Positions 3,227 to 20,467 of a stretch of DNA of 32,583 nt are shown piece after piece; the first letter of the stretch is position 1, and every line of letters begins with the position of its first letter. Source of the DNA: Rheinheimera sp. (lineage in GTDB: Bacteria; Pseudomonadota; Gammaproteobacteria; Enterobacterales; Alteromonadaceae). The notes under the pieces were generated by a model. It saw nothing but the letters and a program-made list of their open reading frames with translations. It did no database searches and had not been told where the DNA came from. The stretch lies in assembly GCF_030824435.1 (NCBI RefSeq), contig NZ_JAVBXS010000053.1, positions 1-32,583 on the forward strand, given 5' to 3'. A program made the translations under genes and the position numbers.

Positions 3227-5419
3227 GTGAGGTATCAGATTGGATCGGTTTTTCTCAGCATGAAGCAGCTTTTTATTCGCCCTCTGTGGCCATTAGTCCT
3301 ATTGGCCCTTGTTGTTGTTATTTCTGTAGTGGCATCCTGGTTATCGTTACAGCTGTGGCAGCAACAACAGAACACAGCTTATCTGCAACAACTCAGTCGT
3401 CATGCAGCCTTACTCGCTATGCATCCGCTGCGTGAGCACAACGCTCAGGCACTCAATCAGACGTTACAGGCTTTACAACAACATAGCGTGCAGCCGTTAC
3501 GGGCTATGGCAGTGTATGATAAAAACCAGCAACTATTTGCGGCAACCGCAGGTGCTGAAGCTGTGTTGAGCAACTATTCACCTTTACCTTCAGTCAGCCA
3601 GCCCGTGGCTTTTGCCGACGGTGTGCAGTTGTTCAGCGTGCCGGTCTGGGCCGATATGGTGCAATTAGGGCGCCTGGATAAACCAGCCCCTGCCATAAGC
3701 TCTGAACAGCTGGGTCATTTGTTACTGGTGGCCGAATCACAACCTTTAGCCCCGTCCTGGTTAATGTTGCCCATATGCATCCAGGTTTTTGTTGGCGGCA
3801 TACTGCTGTATTGGTGGTTGCGGAAAAAACGGCAAAAAAGCCAACGTCAGCAGTTACTGTTGAGCCAGCAACTGCAGCAAGGAGCAACGGTTGAACTGTC
3901 AGGCGATGAGTTTGTAATATTAATTGAAGCTTGGCAACAGCAACAGCAGCGTGTTCAGCACCAACTACGTGCTGTGTCGCGTGATGCAGAGCTTCGGTTG
4001 CAACAACAAGAGCAGCTGCACGCCCATACAGCTGAAAACTTATTGCAGCTGCAGCAAAGTCATCATCAGCTGCAGCAACACAGCAAGTCCTGTGATCAAC
4101 AATTAAAGTTCTGGCTGGAGTTGTGTCATAGATCCGATACGCTCAGTGCCACAGAACTTCGCAGCAAAATTCAGGCGCTGCAGCTGTTATCTCAGCTGCA
4201 TGCCCCGGATTTTGTGTTGCAACCGGACCATCTCTGGCTACCGGACTGGTTGGGTCAACATGCAGCACCCTGGTTTGGCAACAACCAAATCCCGGAACAA
4301 TTTGTGTTTGATGAGGATCCGCAAGCGTACCAATATAAAATTAATATCGATACCCGCCTGCTGAATGTGTTGTGCCAGATTTTTATCTGTTATTGCCAGC
4401 AGGCTGCGGCCGGGCAGGATATTTTGTTTAGCTATCGCTTACGCGAAGTGCCACAAAAACAACTCAAACTGACATTTAAATATACCGGTGCAGGTTTTTC
4501 CCCACGCTGGCGTCAGCTATTGCTGGCGCAACCAGACTCTGTACTGACACTGGATGATGTGGAAGCAGAAGTGGCGAGACTGTTGCTGCAGGCATTGCAT
4601 GGTAGTATTTCGCTGAATTCTCTGGAGGATTTAGGTACTCAGCTGGAGATCCTGTTGCCGTTATCCTGGCAAAAAACCAGCCAGTCGAAATTATGTCAGT
4701 CGGTGCTGGTGCTTGATGAACGCCCTTGTCGTTTACCCCTGTTAAAACAATCCCTGGCCGCCATTGGCGAACAGGTACACAGTGTTGCAACTTTAAGTGC
4801 GTTACCTGAAGCGGTGCAATTACGGCTGGTTGATTTAGTGGTGGTGGTGCTTCCGGAAGAATCGGCGCAGTTGCAAGCCGATGCTGAGGTGCTGAACGCA
4901 CTGGAACTAAGATATCAGTTGTTGTTTTTTGCATCTGACAAAGCCAGACTTTTGTGGCAACCGCTGTTAAATAGCAAGTTGCAGTCAATGCCATTGCTGC
5001 TAAGTCAGGTCAGTCATGCCTTGCAGCATTCCAATGAGTTGGGCAATCAGCAACTGCTGGTTGTTGACGATAACCTGACCAATCTTAAATATGTACAGGC
5101 AATGTTAGCTGGCGGAGGTTTGCGCATAGATATCGCCATGACAGGACATGAAGCCATTAAAATGGCCGCTAACAACAGATATCAGCTCATTTTAATGGAT
5201 ATTCAGTTACCTGATTTGTCAGGCACAGAAGTTACCAAAAGGATCAGGCAATTACGCCATCACCAGCAAACGGCTATTCTGGCTTTTACTGCACACGCAT
5301 TGCCGGATGAAATTGCCAGTTTCAGGCTGGCGGGTATGGATGATGTGCTTATTAAACCGCTGGACACCCAAAAAATTGCTCATATTCTGACCAGGCTCAA
5401 CCCGGCTGATGAAAGCTAA
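3227..5419 (+). CDS. BarA-like hybrid membrane protein with degenerate kinase core and intact receiver
   Basis: A 730-residue (from GTG 3227) two-component protein. In order: transmembrane 1 at ~21-43; a periplasmic region whose segment RAMAVYDKNQQLF (92-104) resembles the sensor domain of BarA; transmembrane 2 at ~178-198; a Gln-rich coiled coil to ~295; a degraded kinase region; a decayed receiver at ~490-600; and a good receiver at ~608-725 (Asp614/615, phospho-acceptor Asp658, Thr688, Lys710). The dimerisation box lacks the His-Glu-x-Arg-Thr-Pro motif. The N-box (RLLNVLCQIFICYC) lacks the metal-binding Asn, and the DxGxG motif reads YTGAG, so ATP binding and autophosphorylation are doubtful. 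BarA's HPt domain is also missing. ATG 3260 is an alternative start giving 719 residues; neither start has a strong ribosome site. Confidence 0.75.
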   Translation: MRYQIGSVFLSMKQLFIRPLWPLVLLALVVVISVVASWLSLQLWQQQQNTAYLQQLSRHAALLAMHPLREHNAQALNQTLQALQQHSVQPLRAMAVYDKNQQLFAATAGAEAVLSNYSPLPSVSQPVAFADGVQLFSVPVWADMVQLGRLDKPAPAISSEQLGHLLLVAESQPLAPSWLMLPICIQVFVGGILLYWWLRKKRQKSQRQQLLLSQQLQQGATVELSGDEFVILIEAWQQQQQRVQHQLRAVSRDAELRLQQQEQLHAHTAENLLQLQQSHHQLQQHSKSCDQQLKFWLELCHRSDTLSATELRSKIQALQLLSQLHAPDFVLQPDHLWLPDWLGQHAAPWFGNNQIPEQFVFDEDPQAYQYKINIDTRLLNVLCQIFICYCQQAAAGQDILFSYRLREVPQKQLKLTFKYTGAGFSPRWRQLLLAQPDSVLTLDDVEAEVARLLLQALHGSISLNSLEDLGTQLEILLPLSWQKTSQSKLCQSVLVLDERPCRLPLLKQSLAAIGEQVHSVATLSALPEAVQLRLVDLVVVVLPEESAQLQADAEVLNALELRYQLLFFASDKARLLWQPLLNSKLQSMPLLLSQVSHALQHSNELGNQQLLVVDDNLTNLKYVQAMLAGGGLRIDIAMTGHEAIKMAANNRYQLILMDIQLPDLSGTEVTKRIRQLRHHQQTAILAFTAHALPDEIASFRLAGMDDVLIKPLDTQKIAHILTRLNPADES

Positions 5420-18486: not shown

Positions 18487-18612
18487 TTTTGCAGCAAAGG
18501 GGCTTGGTGTTGGGTTGCATGATGCCTGATGCATAGCAGATATGCCGGTTTTGCCGTGTATGTAGGTATCGCATGTATTCATCTTCAGCTTGCAGCTGCT
18601 GGCGCTATAGAA

Positions 18613-18824
18613 GCGGGGACTCGCCCCCGCGGGCGAGTCTCTTTCTTTGCTGACAAAGAAAGAGACGCAAAGAAATCACCCCGAGATCGCTCGAAAGCCC
18701 GCTGTTTTGGCACAATTTTGAGGCGCCGCCAAAACTCAGCGGCTGCTAGCGTCAGCCGCTTCAAACAGTTGGCGTCTTAAAACCTCAAAATCGGCCAAAA
18801 CAACGGCTCGCTTGACGGGGCCAA
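18613..18824 (+). repeat. Structured repeat, left copy (A)
   Basis: A 212-bp element that reappears inverted at 20143-20350. Internal pairing: ACTCGCCC/GGGCGAGT (18619-18638); a 13-bp stem with a 4-base loop (18637-18649 with 18654-18666); GTTTTGGC (18704-18711) with GCCAAAAC (18794-18801); ATTTTGAGG (18715-18723) with CCTCAAAAT (18783-18791); and, inside that, AGCGGCTG/CAGCCGCT (18738-18760). The unpaired blocks are nearly identical to copy B; the stems differ but remain paired. There is no transposase and no visible target duplication. Apparent ORFs running through it are treated as artefacts. The rest of the 18417-18612 gap holds only the panP terminator. Confidence 0.9.
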
Positions 18825-19188
18825 GAGCGCTGGTGTCGTAAATTGGTTATTTATGGTTTGTGCCAGTTGCTGACATAGGCTCAGGGGACGCTCTAATCGC
18901 AGGTTTGACTGATAGCGGGCATTGTTGGAAAACAACACATCATTGCGCTCGAAAGTTCCGAGACTGAAACGCATTGCCAAAACGTTAAAAAAACATGCAT
19001 TATCCATTTCTCATTTCTACGGGTTATCAGTATTCAGACTATAACGATGTAGCCAGAATCAGTTGACTACTACAGATTGGGGGAGGCTGAAAAAATCGAG
19101 GAAAAATTAGCATAAAAGCCCCTTAAGACTAATTTCGGGAATAATCATAGGGGCTCAAAATTAATTGAGCCTCCTAGTTGGAGATATT
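18825..19188. other. Gap between repeat A and the orphan gene
   Basis: About 364 bases with no convincing gene. A 76-residue reverse ORF (18777-19007) runs into the repeat and has no recognisable family. The last 75 bases, just before the orphan gene, hold two overlapping possible hairpins: AGCCCCT (19117-19123) with AGGGGCT (19149-19155), and GGCTCAA (19152-19158) with TTGAGCC (19165-19171). They share bases 19152-19155, so only one can form at a time. Confidence 0.5.
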
Positions 19189-19968
19189 GTGGTTAAGAAT
19201 TTTTATAGAACAGTCGCGAGCTTACCTAGTTATGCCTTAGCTCCATGGATTTTCTTAGGTGGTCATTTTTTATTGATTCTAGTTTTTCGTCATTTTTCTG
19301 GTATGACAGAAGTTGAGTTTTCGTTGGAAAAGTACTGGTATTTCTATATTCCAGTATCATTTTGTGGAGTAATTTTTAATTTTAGAATGCATGTCCTGTT
19401 TTTTGTATGGTGGAGGTTTTTAGCTGGATTGTGTTTTATGTTTTTATACATCAGTGTTTTACTAGAGATGGCTTATTTTAGCGGCTGGCCTTTTGTTTCA
19501 TATAGTATGCTTGTGTTGCTATTACTTTATTCGCTATTGTTTTTGTTGCGATTCGTCTTTTGGTCCGATTTTCATAGAACGCTATTATGGTATCGTAAAA
19601 TTGAAAACAAGCATGGTGAAGACATATTTTACCTGACAAAGGATGGATACATGGAAGTGTATGAACTTAATGACAAGTTAAAATTCTTGAAATTTACAGC
19701 ATTTTGGGAAATTGATTTCTTTGCAAAACCTGTCGATTTAACTTCAAAGACCCTAAACGGATTCTATAAGTTTTTCGGGCTGGTAGTAGCTCTGGGAGCC
19801 ATTTACGCAGCTTTCACCGATTTTAATGTGGTGAGTGCAGGTATCATTATTGTTTTTTCATTAATTATCCCAGAGTTTCTAAGGCACTCCGTCGGAAGTG
19901 CTTTTTTGGACGCAATCTTGGTTAGTAAATACAAAATTGGTGATCGTGTCGTTATTCCAAAAAAGTAA
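19189..19968 (+). CDS. Orphan multi-pass membrane protein
   Basis: A 259-residue protein of no family I recognise. Hydrophobic segments lie at about residues 18-34, 50-65, 73-94 and 104-125. A polar ~70-residue stretch rich in Lys, Asp and aromatics follows, then two more segments at ~195-211 and ~216-231, and a short basic tail. Six transmembrane helices with a central soluble loop is the simplest reading. The start is GTG 19189 with GGAG five bases upstream; the frame is open to TTG 19165, which lacks a site. Composition is clearly more AT-rich and richer in Phe, Tyr and Lys than its neighbours, with rarer codons such as AGA and ATA, suggesting acquisition. It is the only gene between the two inverted repeats. 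Confidence 0.65.
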   Translation: MVKNFYRTVASLPSYALAPWIFLGGHFLLILVFRHFSGMTEVEFSLEKYWYFYIPVSFCGVIFNFRMHVLFFVWWRFLAGLCFMFLYISVLLEMAYFSGWPFVSYSMLVLLLLYSLLFLLRFVFWSDFHRTLLWYRKIENKHGEDIFYLTKDGYMEVYELNDKLKFLKFTAFWEIDFFAKPVDLTSKTLNGFYKFFGLVVALGAIYAAFTDFNVVSAGIIIVFSLIIPEFLRHSVGSAFLDAILVSKYKIGDRVVIPKK

Positions 19969-20033
19969 AAGGTTAGGCAATAAGAATATCCAGCAAATTA
20001 CCCGATGCCTTTGGCAATTCGCTGCGTTAACCA

Positions 20034-20077
20034 AAAAACGAATGACCGCAATTAAGGCAAAATAGATATTCGTTTTT
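20034..20077 (+). terminator. Possible terminator of the orphan gene
   Basis: AAAAACGAAT (20034-20043) pairs with ATTCGTTTTT (20068-20077) around a 24-base loop, ending in a T run. It is weaker than the other terminators here because the stem is AT-rich and the loop long. Confidence 0.4.
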
Positions 20078-20142
20078 CAAATATCTCCGCTTTTAAACAA
20101 CCGCTATTTGTTCAAAACAGAAATTTCCAAGCAGCTCTGTTG

Positions 20143-20350
20143 TTGGCCCCGTCAAGCGAGCCGTTGTTTTGACCTGTTTTGAGGTTTTAAGACGCCAACT
20201 GTTTGAGGCGAGCGACGGTAGCGCTCGCCGAGTTTTGGCGGCGCCTCAAAATTGGTCAAAACAGCGGGCTTTCGAGCGATCTCGGGGTCGTTTTTTATGT
20301 CACTTTTTGTCGACACAAAAAGTGACTCGCCCGCGGGGGCGAGACCCCGC
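20143..20350 (-). repeat. Structured repeat, right copy (B), inverted
   Basis: A 208-bp copy of the element at 18613-18824 on the opposite strand, with both ends matching. Hairpins in forward coordinates: GTCACTTTTTGT (20299-20310) with ACAAAAAGTGAC (20315-20326); GGCGAGCG (20207-20214) with CGCTCGCC (20222-20229); GTTTTGACC (20166-20174) with GGTCAAAAC (20254-20262); TTTTGAGG (20177-20184) with CCTCAAAA (20244-20251). Relative to copy A at least eight stem pairs are changed on both sides. The remaining gap (19969-20142 and 20351-20467) holds a possible terminator at 20034 and short GCCGCAGGC/GCCGCCGGC palindromic motifs, but no gene. Confidence 0.9.
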
Positions 20351-20467
20351 ATACGTGCCATGCCGCAGGCATAAAATAAACCAAAAATAACAGTAGGTTA
20401 GTGCAACAAAGCTGTCATGCCGCCGGCATCCAGCAAAACGCCGCCAACACTTTGGCAAAACCAAGCG

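Follow-up and report, generated by a model that had tools for sequence, protein, structure and literature searches.

Fold-conserved inverted repeats of Rheinheimera as the probable ends of a non-autonomous mobile DNA unit

In a contig of Rheinheimera sp. (NZ_JAVBXS010000053.1; its 32,583 nucleotides, the whole stretch of DNA analysed, are called the window here), two copies of a structured element lie in inverted orientation on either side of a foreign-looking 267-aa frame. These two copies probably mark the two ends of a single non-autonomous unit of mobile DNA, a large, structured inverted doublet of the REPIN-like kind that can carry genes. We favour this reading because the fold is conserved, because it covaries almost wholly by Watson-Crick exchanges and because neighbouring copies on opposite strands are convergent; further, because doublets exist in compact and in gene-carrying form, the cargo differs at two orthologous sites and one insertion is absent from two relatives.

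The two copies measure 212 nt (18613-18824, plus strand) and 208 nt (20143-20350, minus strand). Alignment gave 181 identical bases out of 208 (87%) with 4 gap columns, which confirms the inverted pair with matching ends reported in the preliminary description, and an independent detection of inverted repeats in the window returned the same arms. From the outside to the inside, each arm is made of a small palindrome (P1), two hairpins (P2 and P3), a further CAAAGAAA-like stretch and a 3' module of 145 positions; P2, P3 and the 3' module form the core of ~210 nt. The features of the window are the following:

18586..18598, plus strand: P1, small palindrome CAGCTTGCAGCTG, outer end of copy 1
18613..18824, plus strand: copy 1 of the structured element, core
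18620..18637, plus strand: P2 hairpin of copy 1, CTCGCCC-CGCG-GGGCGAG
18637..18666, plus strand: P3 hairpin of copy 1, 13 bp, loop CTGA
18668..18675, plus strand: further CAAAGAAA after P3, direct repeat of part of the 3' arm of P3
18677..18820, plus strand: 3' module of copy 1, with long-range helix, internal helix and apical hairpin
18825..18880, plus strand: inner extension of copy 1, ATTTATGGTTTGTGCC...TTGC
19165..19968, plus strand: cargo frame of 267 aa with a listed TTG start; inspection by eye shows several hydrophobic stretches
20143..20350, minus strand: copy 2 of the structured element, inverted, core
20147..20289, minus strand: 3' module of copy 2, facing copy 1
20299..20326, minus strand: P3 hairpin of copy 2, 12 bp, of another sequence type
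20360..20372, minus strand: P1 palindrome ATGCCGCAGGCAT, outer end of copy 2

Relatives are designated below by inferred genome names, namely UBA8519 (G017), sp. 4Y26 (G019), R. riviphila (G005), sp. SA_1 (G013), R. texasensis (G003) and UWPOB_PARA1 (G007). The sequence of P1 changes between copies, and P1-like small palindromes were found by eye ahead of copies in the closest genomes and also free-standing, in the manner of REPs. P2 reads TCGCC/GGCGA in other subfamilies and TCACC/GGTGA in R. texasensis, and P3 occurs as TTTCTTTG..CAAAGAAA, as ACTTTTTGT..ACAAAAAGT and as other types. The 3' module contains the unpaired motifs CGAAAGCCCG, AACTC, TCAAACA and CTTAAAACCT and ends near CGGGG plus AARAGC; the inner extension that follows it in copy 1 resembles that of several copies in the closest genomes. 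Two repeated structures were met beside these parts: a REP-like palindrome akin to P1, in tandem units of 27 bp such as TAAATAAAACCGCCATGCCGCAGGCAT, at about 3600-3750 of locus L113, and, in UWPOB_PARA1 (L159:63-387, also L158 and L162), arrays of a ~88-bp unit consisting of the inner end of the element and followed by a full inverted element.

When folded as single-stranded DNA, each window copy gave a structure that was matched by no dinucleotide shuffle among 200 (z-scores of -7.53 for copy 1 and -7.57 for copy 2). In the consensus fold of the two copies, 54 of the 62 pairs are unchanged, 7 are changed on both sides to another Watson-Crick pair, one has become G-U and none is broken. At least eight covarying pairs had been claimed previously; this alignment, in which the unlike P3 hairpins are hard to superimpose, holds seven. 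The mismatches are not concentrated in the stems (15 of 124 paired columns versus 12 of 88 unpaired columns). Covariation from two copies alone is modest, and it is the wider family that settles the question.

Among 22 diverse copies, changes on both sides were found in 30 of 46 pairs. Paired cells amounted to 89.1% versus 69.0% in shuffles, cells with a double change to 205 versus 66, and the covariation score to 0.481 versus 0.147; for each of these values none of 500 shuffles was as high, in a control that ignores the relatedness of the copies. The number of further pair types was not exceptional (95 of 500 shuffles as high). When the partners were slid by 1-3 columns, at most 46.0% of the cells were paired and the covariation score was at most 0.147, a comparison that leans in favour of the structure, which was derived from the same 22 copies. 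These results support the proposal that the fold is under selection. In the 3' module the four unpaired motifs are invariant or nearly so, in contrast to the variable internal and apical stems.

Covariation of this kind would also arise if template switching at replication corrected one arm of a palindrome against the other, with no selection on the fold. The overall dominance of double changes and the rarity of wobble pairs agree with such a process. Against it, copies less than 6% diverged showed 44 one-sided versus 22 double cells in the apical helix (counted over non-independent pairs of copies), and the strong conservation of the unpaired motifs is what a selected structure would be expected to show. 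Because one-sided changes exist among close copies, arm correction is not the whole story, and we regard it as an improbable explanation of the covariation.

The preliminary description had left open whether the folded molecule is RNA or single-stranded DNA. Of the 46 pairs, 35 are kept at 80% or more; there, G-U accounted for 4 of 729 paired cells (0.55%), alongside 10 A-C and 20 mismatches of other kinds. Across columns 104-180 of an alignment of 107 copies (21 pairs), 12 of 2162 cells were G-U, with 24 A-C and 42 other. By contrast, RNase P from the 22 genomes of the genus, with its structure computed in the same way, had 368 G-U in 2456 cells (15.0%) and 3 A-C, a standing fraction in an RNA that is far more conserved than the element (94% versus 66% mean identity). 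One-sided departures from the commonest pair kept a standard pair in 54 of 94 cells of RNase P and in 4 of 182 cells of the element. With all helices of the 107 copies included (47 pairs kept), G-U rose to 4.3%, mostly through the P2 and P3 columns, in which dissimilar types are misaligned. DNA is thus favoured over RNA because G-U is nearly absent and A-C at least as common, compared with 15.0% G-U in RNase P, and pairing looks to be kept at the DNA level. A structured non-coding or cis-regulatory RNA, which would equally account for the strong fold and the covariation, is therefore scarcely probable given the G-U values and the lack of any Rfam match reaching the gathering score, either in the window or among 11 loci from relatives; an RNA gene or riboswitch was set aside as the main reading on these two grounds. 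The Rfam search returned one microRNA match at E 0.21, far below its threshold. That no named family with this layout was known remains the case for Rfam and for the literature searched, in which the exact element sequences were not found in any paper (preprints and most subscription papers lay outside this literature). Covariation free of wobble pairs suggests a general test for DNA versus RNA structure when genomes are scanned, in which G-U and A-C cells are compared with those of a known RNA from the same genomes.

The element is repeated in its own genome, with 20 matches at E<=1, of which 16 at E<=1e-6, whole or partial and several cut by contig ends; the near-full copies are 81-94% identical to the window copy over about 180-210 bp. 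At least 46 copies were found in Rheinheimera sp. UJ63. Out of 60 genomes searched at 1e-6, 11 gave matches, namely 10 of the 22 genomes of the genus (its own included) and one of another family. A pattern scan of genome contigs yielded 57 stretches from Rheinheimera, Alishewanella longhuensis and gammaproteobacterial MAGs. A covariance model of the 3' module recovered one further genus among 394 genomes of the order, with two matches (E 2.7e-5 and 9.7e-4), and gave no match in 398 genomes of the phylum; both searches used stricter filters, with 7-8 candidates scored per genome in the rows listed, and absence is here weak evidence. The window element had no match in the plasmid and phage collections, and the 3'-module pattern was absent from the viral contigs.

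The outer module, that is the two hairpins plus CAAAGAAA, is found more widely. The P3 pattern was present in 22 of 398 phylum genomes and in 17 of 212 genera, with zero in the reversed-pattern control columns, which agrees in part with the earlier remark that CTTTCTTTG/CAAAGAAAG hairpins are frequent in the genomes of proteobacteria. The same pattern gave 22 stretches in viral contigs. Many copies of the wider family share P2, P3, CAAAGAAA and GCGACCC-like letters, after which they continue into a long hairpin that differs in sequence. P3 is not sufficient to define the family, because the apical motif AACTC...TCARACA was carried by 14 of the 26 genome copies, two of these being from Rheinheimera, and by 3 of the 22 viral-contig copies; it was found in none of 46 upstream controls. 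Hairpins resembling P3 with an extra CAAAGAAA, lacking the apical motif, occur in viral contigs L359, L364, L373 and L377, and also in a plasmid of Ilyobacter polytropus (L415; Fusobacteriota).

The outer module of other Gammaproteobacteria is in some cases arranged as convergent doublets. In 20 stretches from seven genomes, chosen partly for pairs already visible in the P3 pattern scan, neighbouring P3s were convergent 7 times, tandem 4 times and never divergent, and 12 stretches held a single P3; compact convergent doublets were seen in 4 other genomes among these stretches. Compact convergent arrangements were also present in 3 of 5 plasmid records, from Variovorax paradoxus (read from the apical motifs and the sequence), Caballeronia zhejiangensis and Pasteurella multocida, the Comamonas and Ilyobacter records having one P3 each. 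One relative at the level of the order, L320, has a short frame enclosed by an inverted pair, the whole lying between two other genes.

The orientation of neighbouring copies was surveyed in a non-redundant set of 147 copies covering at least about 100 model positions each, 101 outside UJ63 and 46 in UJ63. Within 3 kb, opposite-strand neighbours were convergent in 30 cases and divergent in 2 (p 2.5e-7, a guide only, some orthologous pairs being counted in more than one species), and 24 neighbours were tandem. Outside UJ63 the counts were 25 convergent, 2 tandem and 1 divergent; in UJ63 they were 5, 22 and 1, respectively, and this genome contains head-to-tail arrays of elements, some of whose units are near-identical. 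Many copies are single. The gaps between the cores of convergent pairs fall into two ranges, 68-242 nt in 15 of the 30 and 672-2418 nt in the other 15, and it looks as if the compact form is an inverted doublet and the long form carries genes. Convergent copies around exchangeable genes are the feature that the preliminary description had missed. A dispersed palindromic repeat of ~118 nt, GGCTGGAGACGT...CTCCAGCC, precedes many UJ63 elements and was also met alone and diverged (L262:6816-6936, and other places in UJ63, EpRS3 and A. longhuensis). As a candidate target of the element it was rejected, given its occurrence alone and diverged and the lack of a clear junction.

The 267-aa protein encoded between the window copies had no match in Pfam or PADLOC, and its gene appears from its letters to be an orphan of membrane-protein-like type. 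The segment 19087-19966 (880 bp) shares 97% identity with a locus on the chromosome of R. riviphila (C81), where the decarboxylase flank is 85% identical and the relative of the cargo follows a 390-aa frame that has no Pfam match. That the 390-aa and 267-aa frames form a toxin-immunity pair is a guess. Behind the cargo gene, at 19998-20027 of the window, lies a 30-nt hairpin repeat that is 87% identical to L109:5567-5596, behind the native gene in R. riviphila; a 12-nt inverted match to this hairpin lies ahead of the cargo gene at 18970-18981.

Genes scanned in or beside other element intervals encode a MerR/TipAS protein (own genome, site C79), a HEPN protein and a protein of which a short stretch matches PADLOC Stk2 (both in sp. 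4Y26), zinc-ribbon/ankyrin and RHH-ParE proteins (R. riviphila), and DUF2971, which also matches PADLOC PDC-S31, and Phd-ParE (sp. SA_1). In UJ63 they include Phd-ParE twice (one pair in the divergent interval, the other next to a partial element in an interval of 3.3 kb), DUF4160-DUF2442 next to a ubiquitin-like protein, and, as judged by eye, a racemase, a hydrolase and a deacetylase; several intervals in this genome contain genes of ordinary appearance, a PAS sensor kinase among them. The other interval proteins scanned had no convincing domain or PADLOC match. The C79 cargo is 93% identical to C22 of G002, a genome that has no element match.

Comparison of orthologous sites revealed that the cargo differs between species. 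At the window site, the pair enclosing the 267-aa frame is replaced by a pair with a 182-aa frame in UBA8519 and by a single element copy in sp. 4Y26, and in R. riviphila, sp. SA_1 and G020 the two flanks are only about 80-140 nt apart; no element was found in the sequence of this site in R. riviphila and sp. SA_1. In UBA8519 the site has a further 4-kb stretch (L112:5007-8938), at the end of which part of the right flank is repeated. At C79, the pair holds MerR in the own genome and HEPN in sp. 4Y26. Finally, site C10 of sp. 4Y26 carries an element-gene-element-IS110-element arrangement of about 3.07 kb that is absent from the same site in UBA8519 and G000. In place of it, UBA8519 has 26 nt (flanks 92 and 91% identical) and G000 has 34 nt (flanks 92 and 80% identical), and the empty site of G000 keeps one P1-like palindrome. 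Judged from these alignments, C10 appears to be the clearest sign of insertion, the alternative being deletion in two lineages. The flanks are diverged and rich in other repeats, and no target-site duplication could be read at the window site, where divergence was too high, or at the junctions of C10.

Several observations speak against a mobile unit: no recurrent enzyme was seen, no target-site duplication was read, 22 of the 28 UJ63 neighbour pairs are tandem, several UJ63 intervals contain ordinary genes, many copies are single and the site that is empty in relatives holds an IS110 gene. The main rival is homologous exchange between copies, in which the repeats would be dispersed under some other constraint and the cargo swapped by RecA-dependent recombination, for instance after uptake of foreign DNA. 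The identity of the near-full copies in the own genome, the shared flanks and differing cargo of orthologous loci, and copies mixing features of different types, which suggest exchange among copies, all speak for it, and part of the cargo turnover may be its work. By itself, however, it leaves unexplained the 30:2 ratio of convergent to divergent neighbours, the compact doublets in other families and the origin of new insertion sites, and we consider it unlikely as the full account.

No transposase or recombinase was seen to recur inside or beside the pairs, and no insertion sequence with the same ends as the element was seen in the retrieved stretches. One IS110 transposase gene and three intI neighbours were encountered, at single or apparently orthologous sites. 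The IS110-family gene lies between two elements in sp. 4Y26 (L126:4495-6130), one of which lacks its inner end; it therefore reads as an insertion into the element and was rejected as the mobiliser. A Y1/RAYT transposase was likewise discarded as a present-day partner, no PF01797 match being found in G003, G010 and G019, three of the ten element-bearing genomes of the genus.

A relationship to integron sites, with the element acting as an attC-like folded site recombined by the IntI of the genus, was also considered. In sp. 4Y26, UBA8519 and the own genome, the 3' end of the intI match is separated by about 65-95 nt from a copy of the element (L240:6339-6557, L241:16027-16230 and L249:1003-1062), and the cargo of single genes and toxin-antitoxin pairs resembles that of integron cassettes. 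Yet these three cases look like one orthologous site, intI exceeded the cut-off in 9 of 10 element-bearing and in 9 of 12 element-free genomes of the genus, the arms are convergent rather than direct outside UJ63, and compact relatives occur in other families too (the intI counts cover genomes of the genus). IntI was therefore rejected as the partner, its presence not tracking the element, and the whole relationship is very improbable. Inspection of sp. 4Y26 by eye showed attC-like sequences beyond the 5' end of intI, and a resemblance of one element flank (L148:4110-4470) to the attI-like region upstream of intI.

The reading as ends of a mobile unit invites comparison with known systems. MITEs and mobile insertion cassettes (MICs) have inverted ends around passenger genes and no transposase. 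The element likewise has inverted ends around non-transposase cargo, but neither a parent IS nor a target duplication was found for it in the retrieved stretches, and in its arms the fold is better conserved than the sequence. Integron cassettes with their attC sites are folded DNA sites of variable sequence, with single-gene cargo and organised in arrays. These traits are shared by the element, with arrays in UJ63; by contrast, its arms are mostly convergent outside UJ63, tandem copies dominating only there, no attC boxes were recognised in it by eye and the integrase does not track it. REPINs are inverted REP doublets mobilised by RAYT transposases. They are described as intergenic inverted doublets with a short spacer that form hairpins in single-stranded DNA and show compensatory changes (PMC3116915). 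The short-gapped half of the convergent pairs and the compact doublets of other families have this inverted, short-spacer layout. With several hairpins and a length of some 210 nt or more, the arms are nevertheless much larger than a REP, given as about 20-40 bp in another report (PMC3733652). Further, the element has gene-carrying versions, and a Y1 (RAYT) match is missing from the three element-bearing genomes mentioned above. The ends of IS200/IS605 carry subterminal hairpins recognised in single-stranded DNA (PMC6006769); the element differs in that no TnpA was seen in its units and its two ends are inverted repeats of each other.

If the arms do bound a mobile unit, each would have to fold as DNA, with small hairpins on the outside and a long hairpin, next to them, pointing inwards. 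The folded arms would be recognised, probably in single-stranded or extruded DNA, by a nuclease or recombinase supplied from elsewhere in the cell, and the unit between two convergent arms would move. A unit that took up a gene would become a gene cassette; that of the window would carry its presumed membrane-protein gene, with the near-identical relative residing elsewhere in R. riviphila.

We propose more tentatively that these units may represent a widespread cassette system recognised by shape, with multi-hairpin arms that keep their fold while drifting in sequence and that form convergent doublets across the Gammaproteobacteria; in Rheinheimera, toxin-antitoxin, defence-like and orphan genes would be captured and exchanged at fixed chromosomal sites by a putative enzyme. 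The element family looks abundant enough for direct testing. If the arms are indeed the ends of moving units, they would offer, beside integrons and transposons, a further route for shuffling small defence and toxin-antitoxin genes, in which recognition depends on the shape of the DNA.
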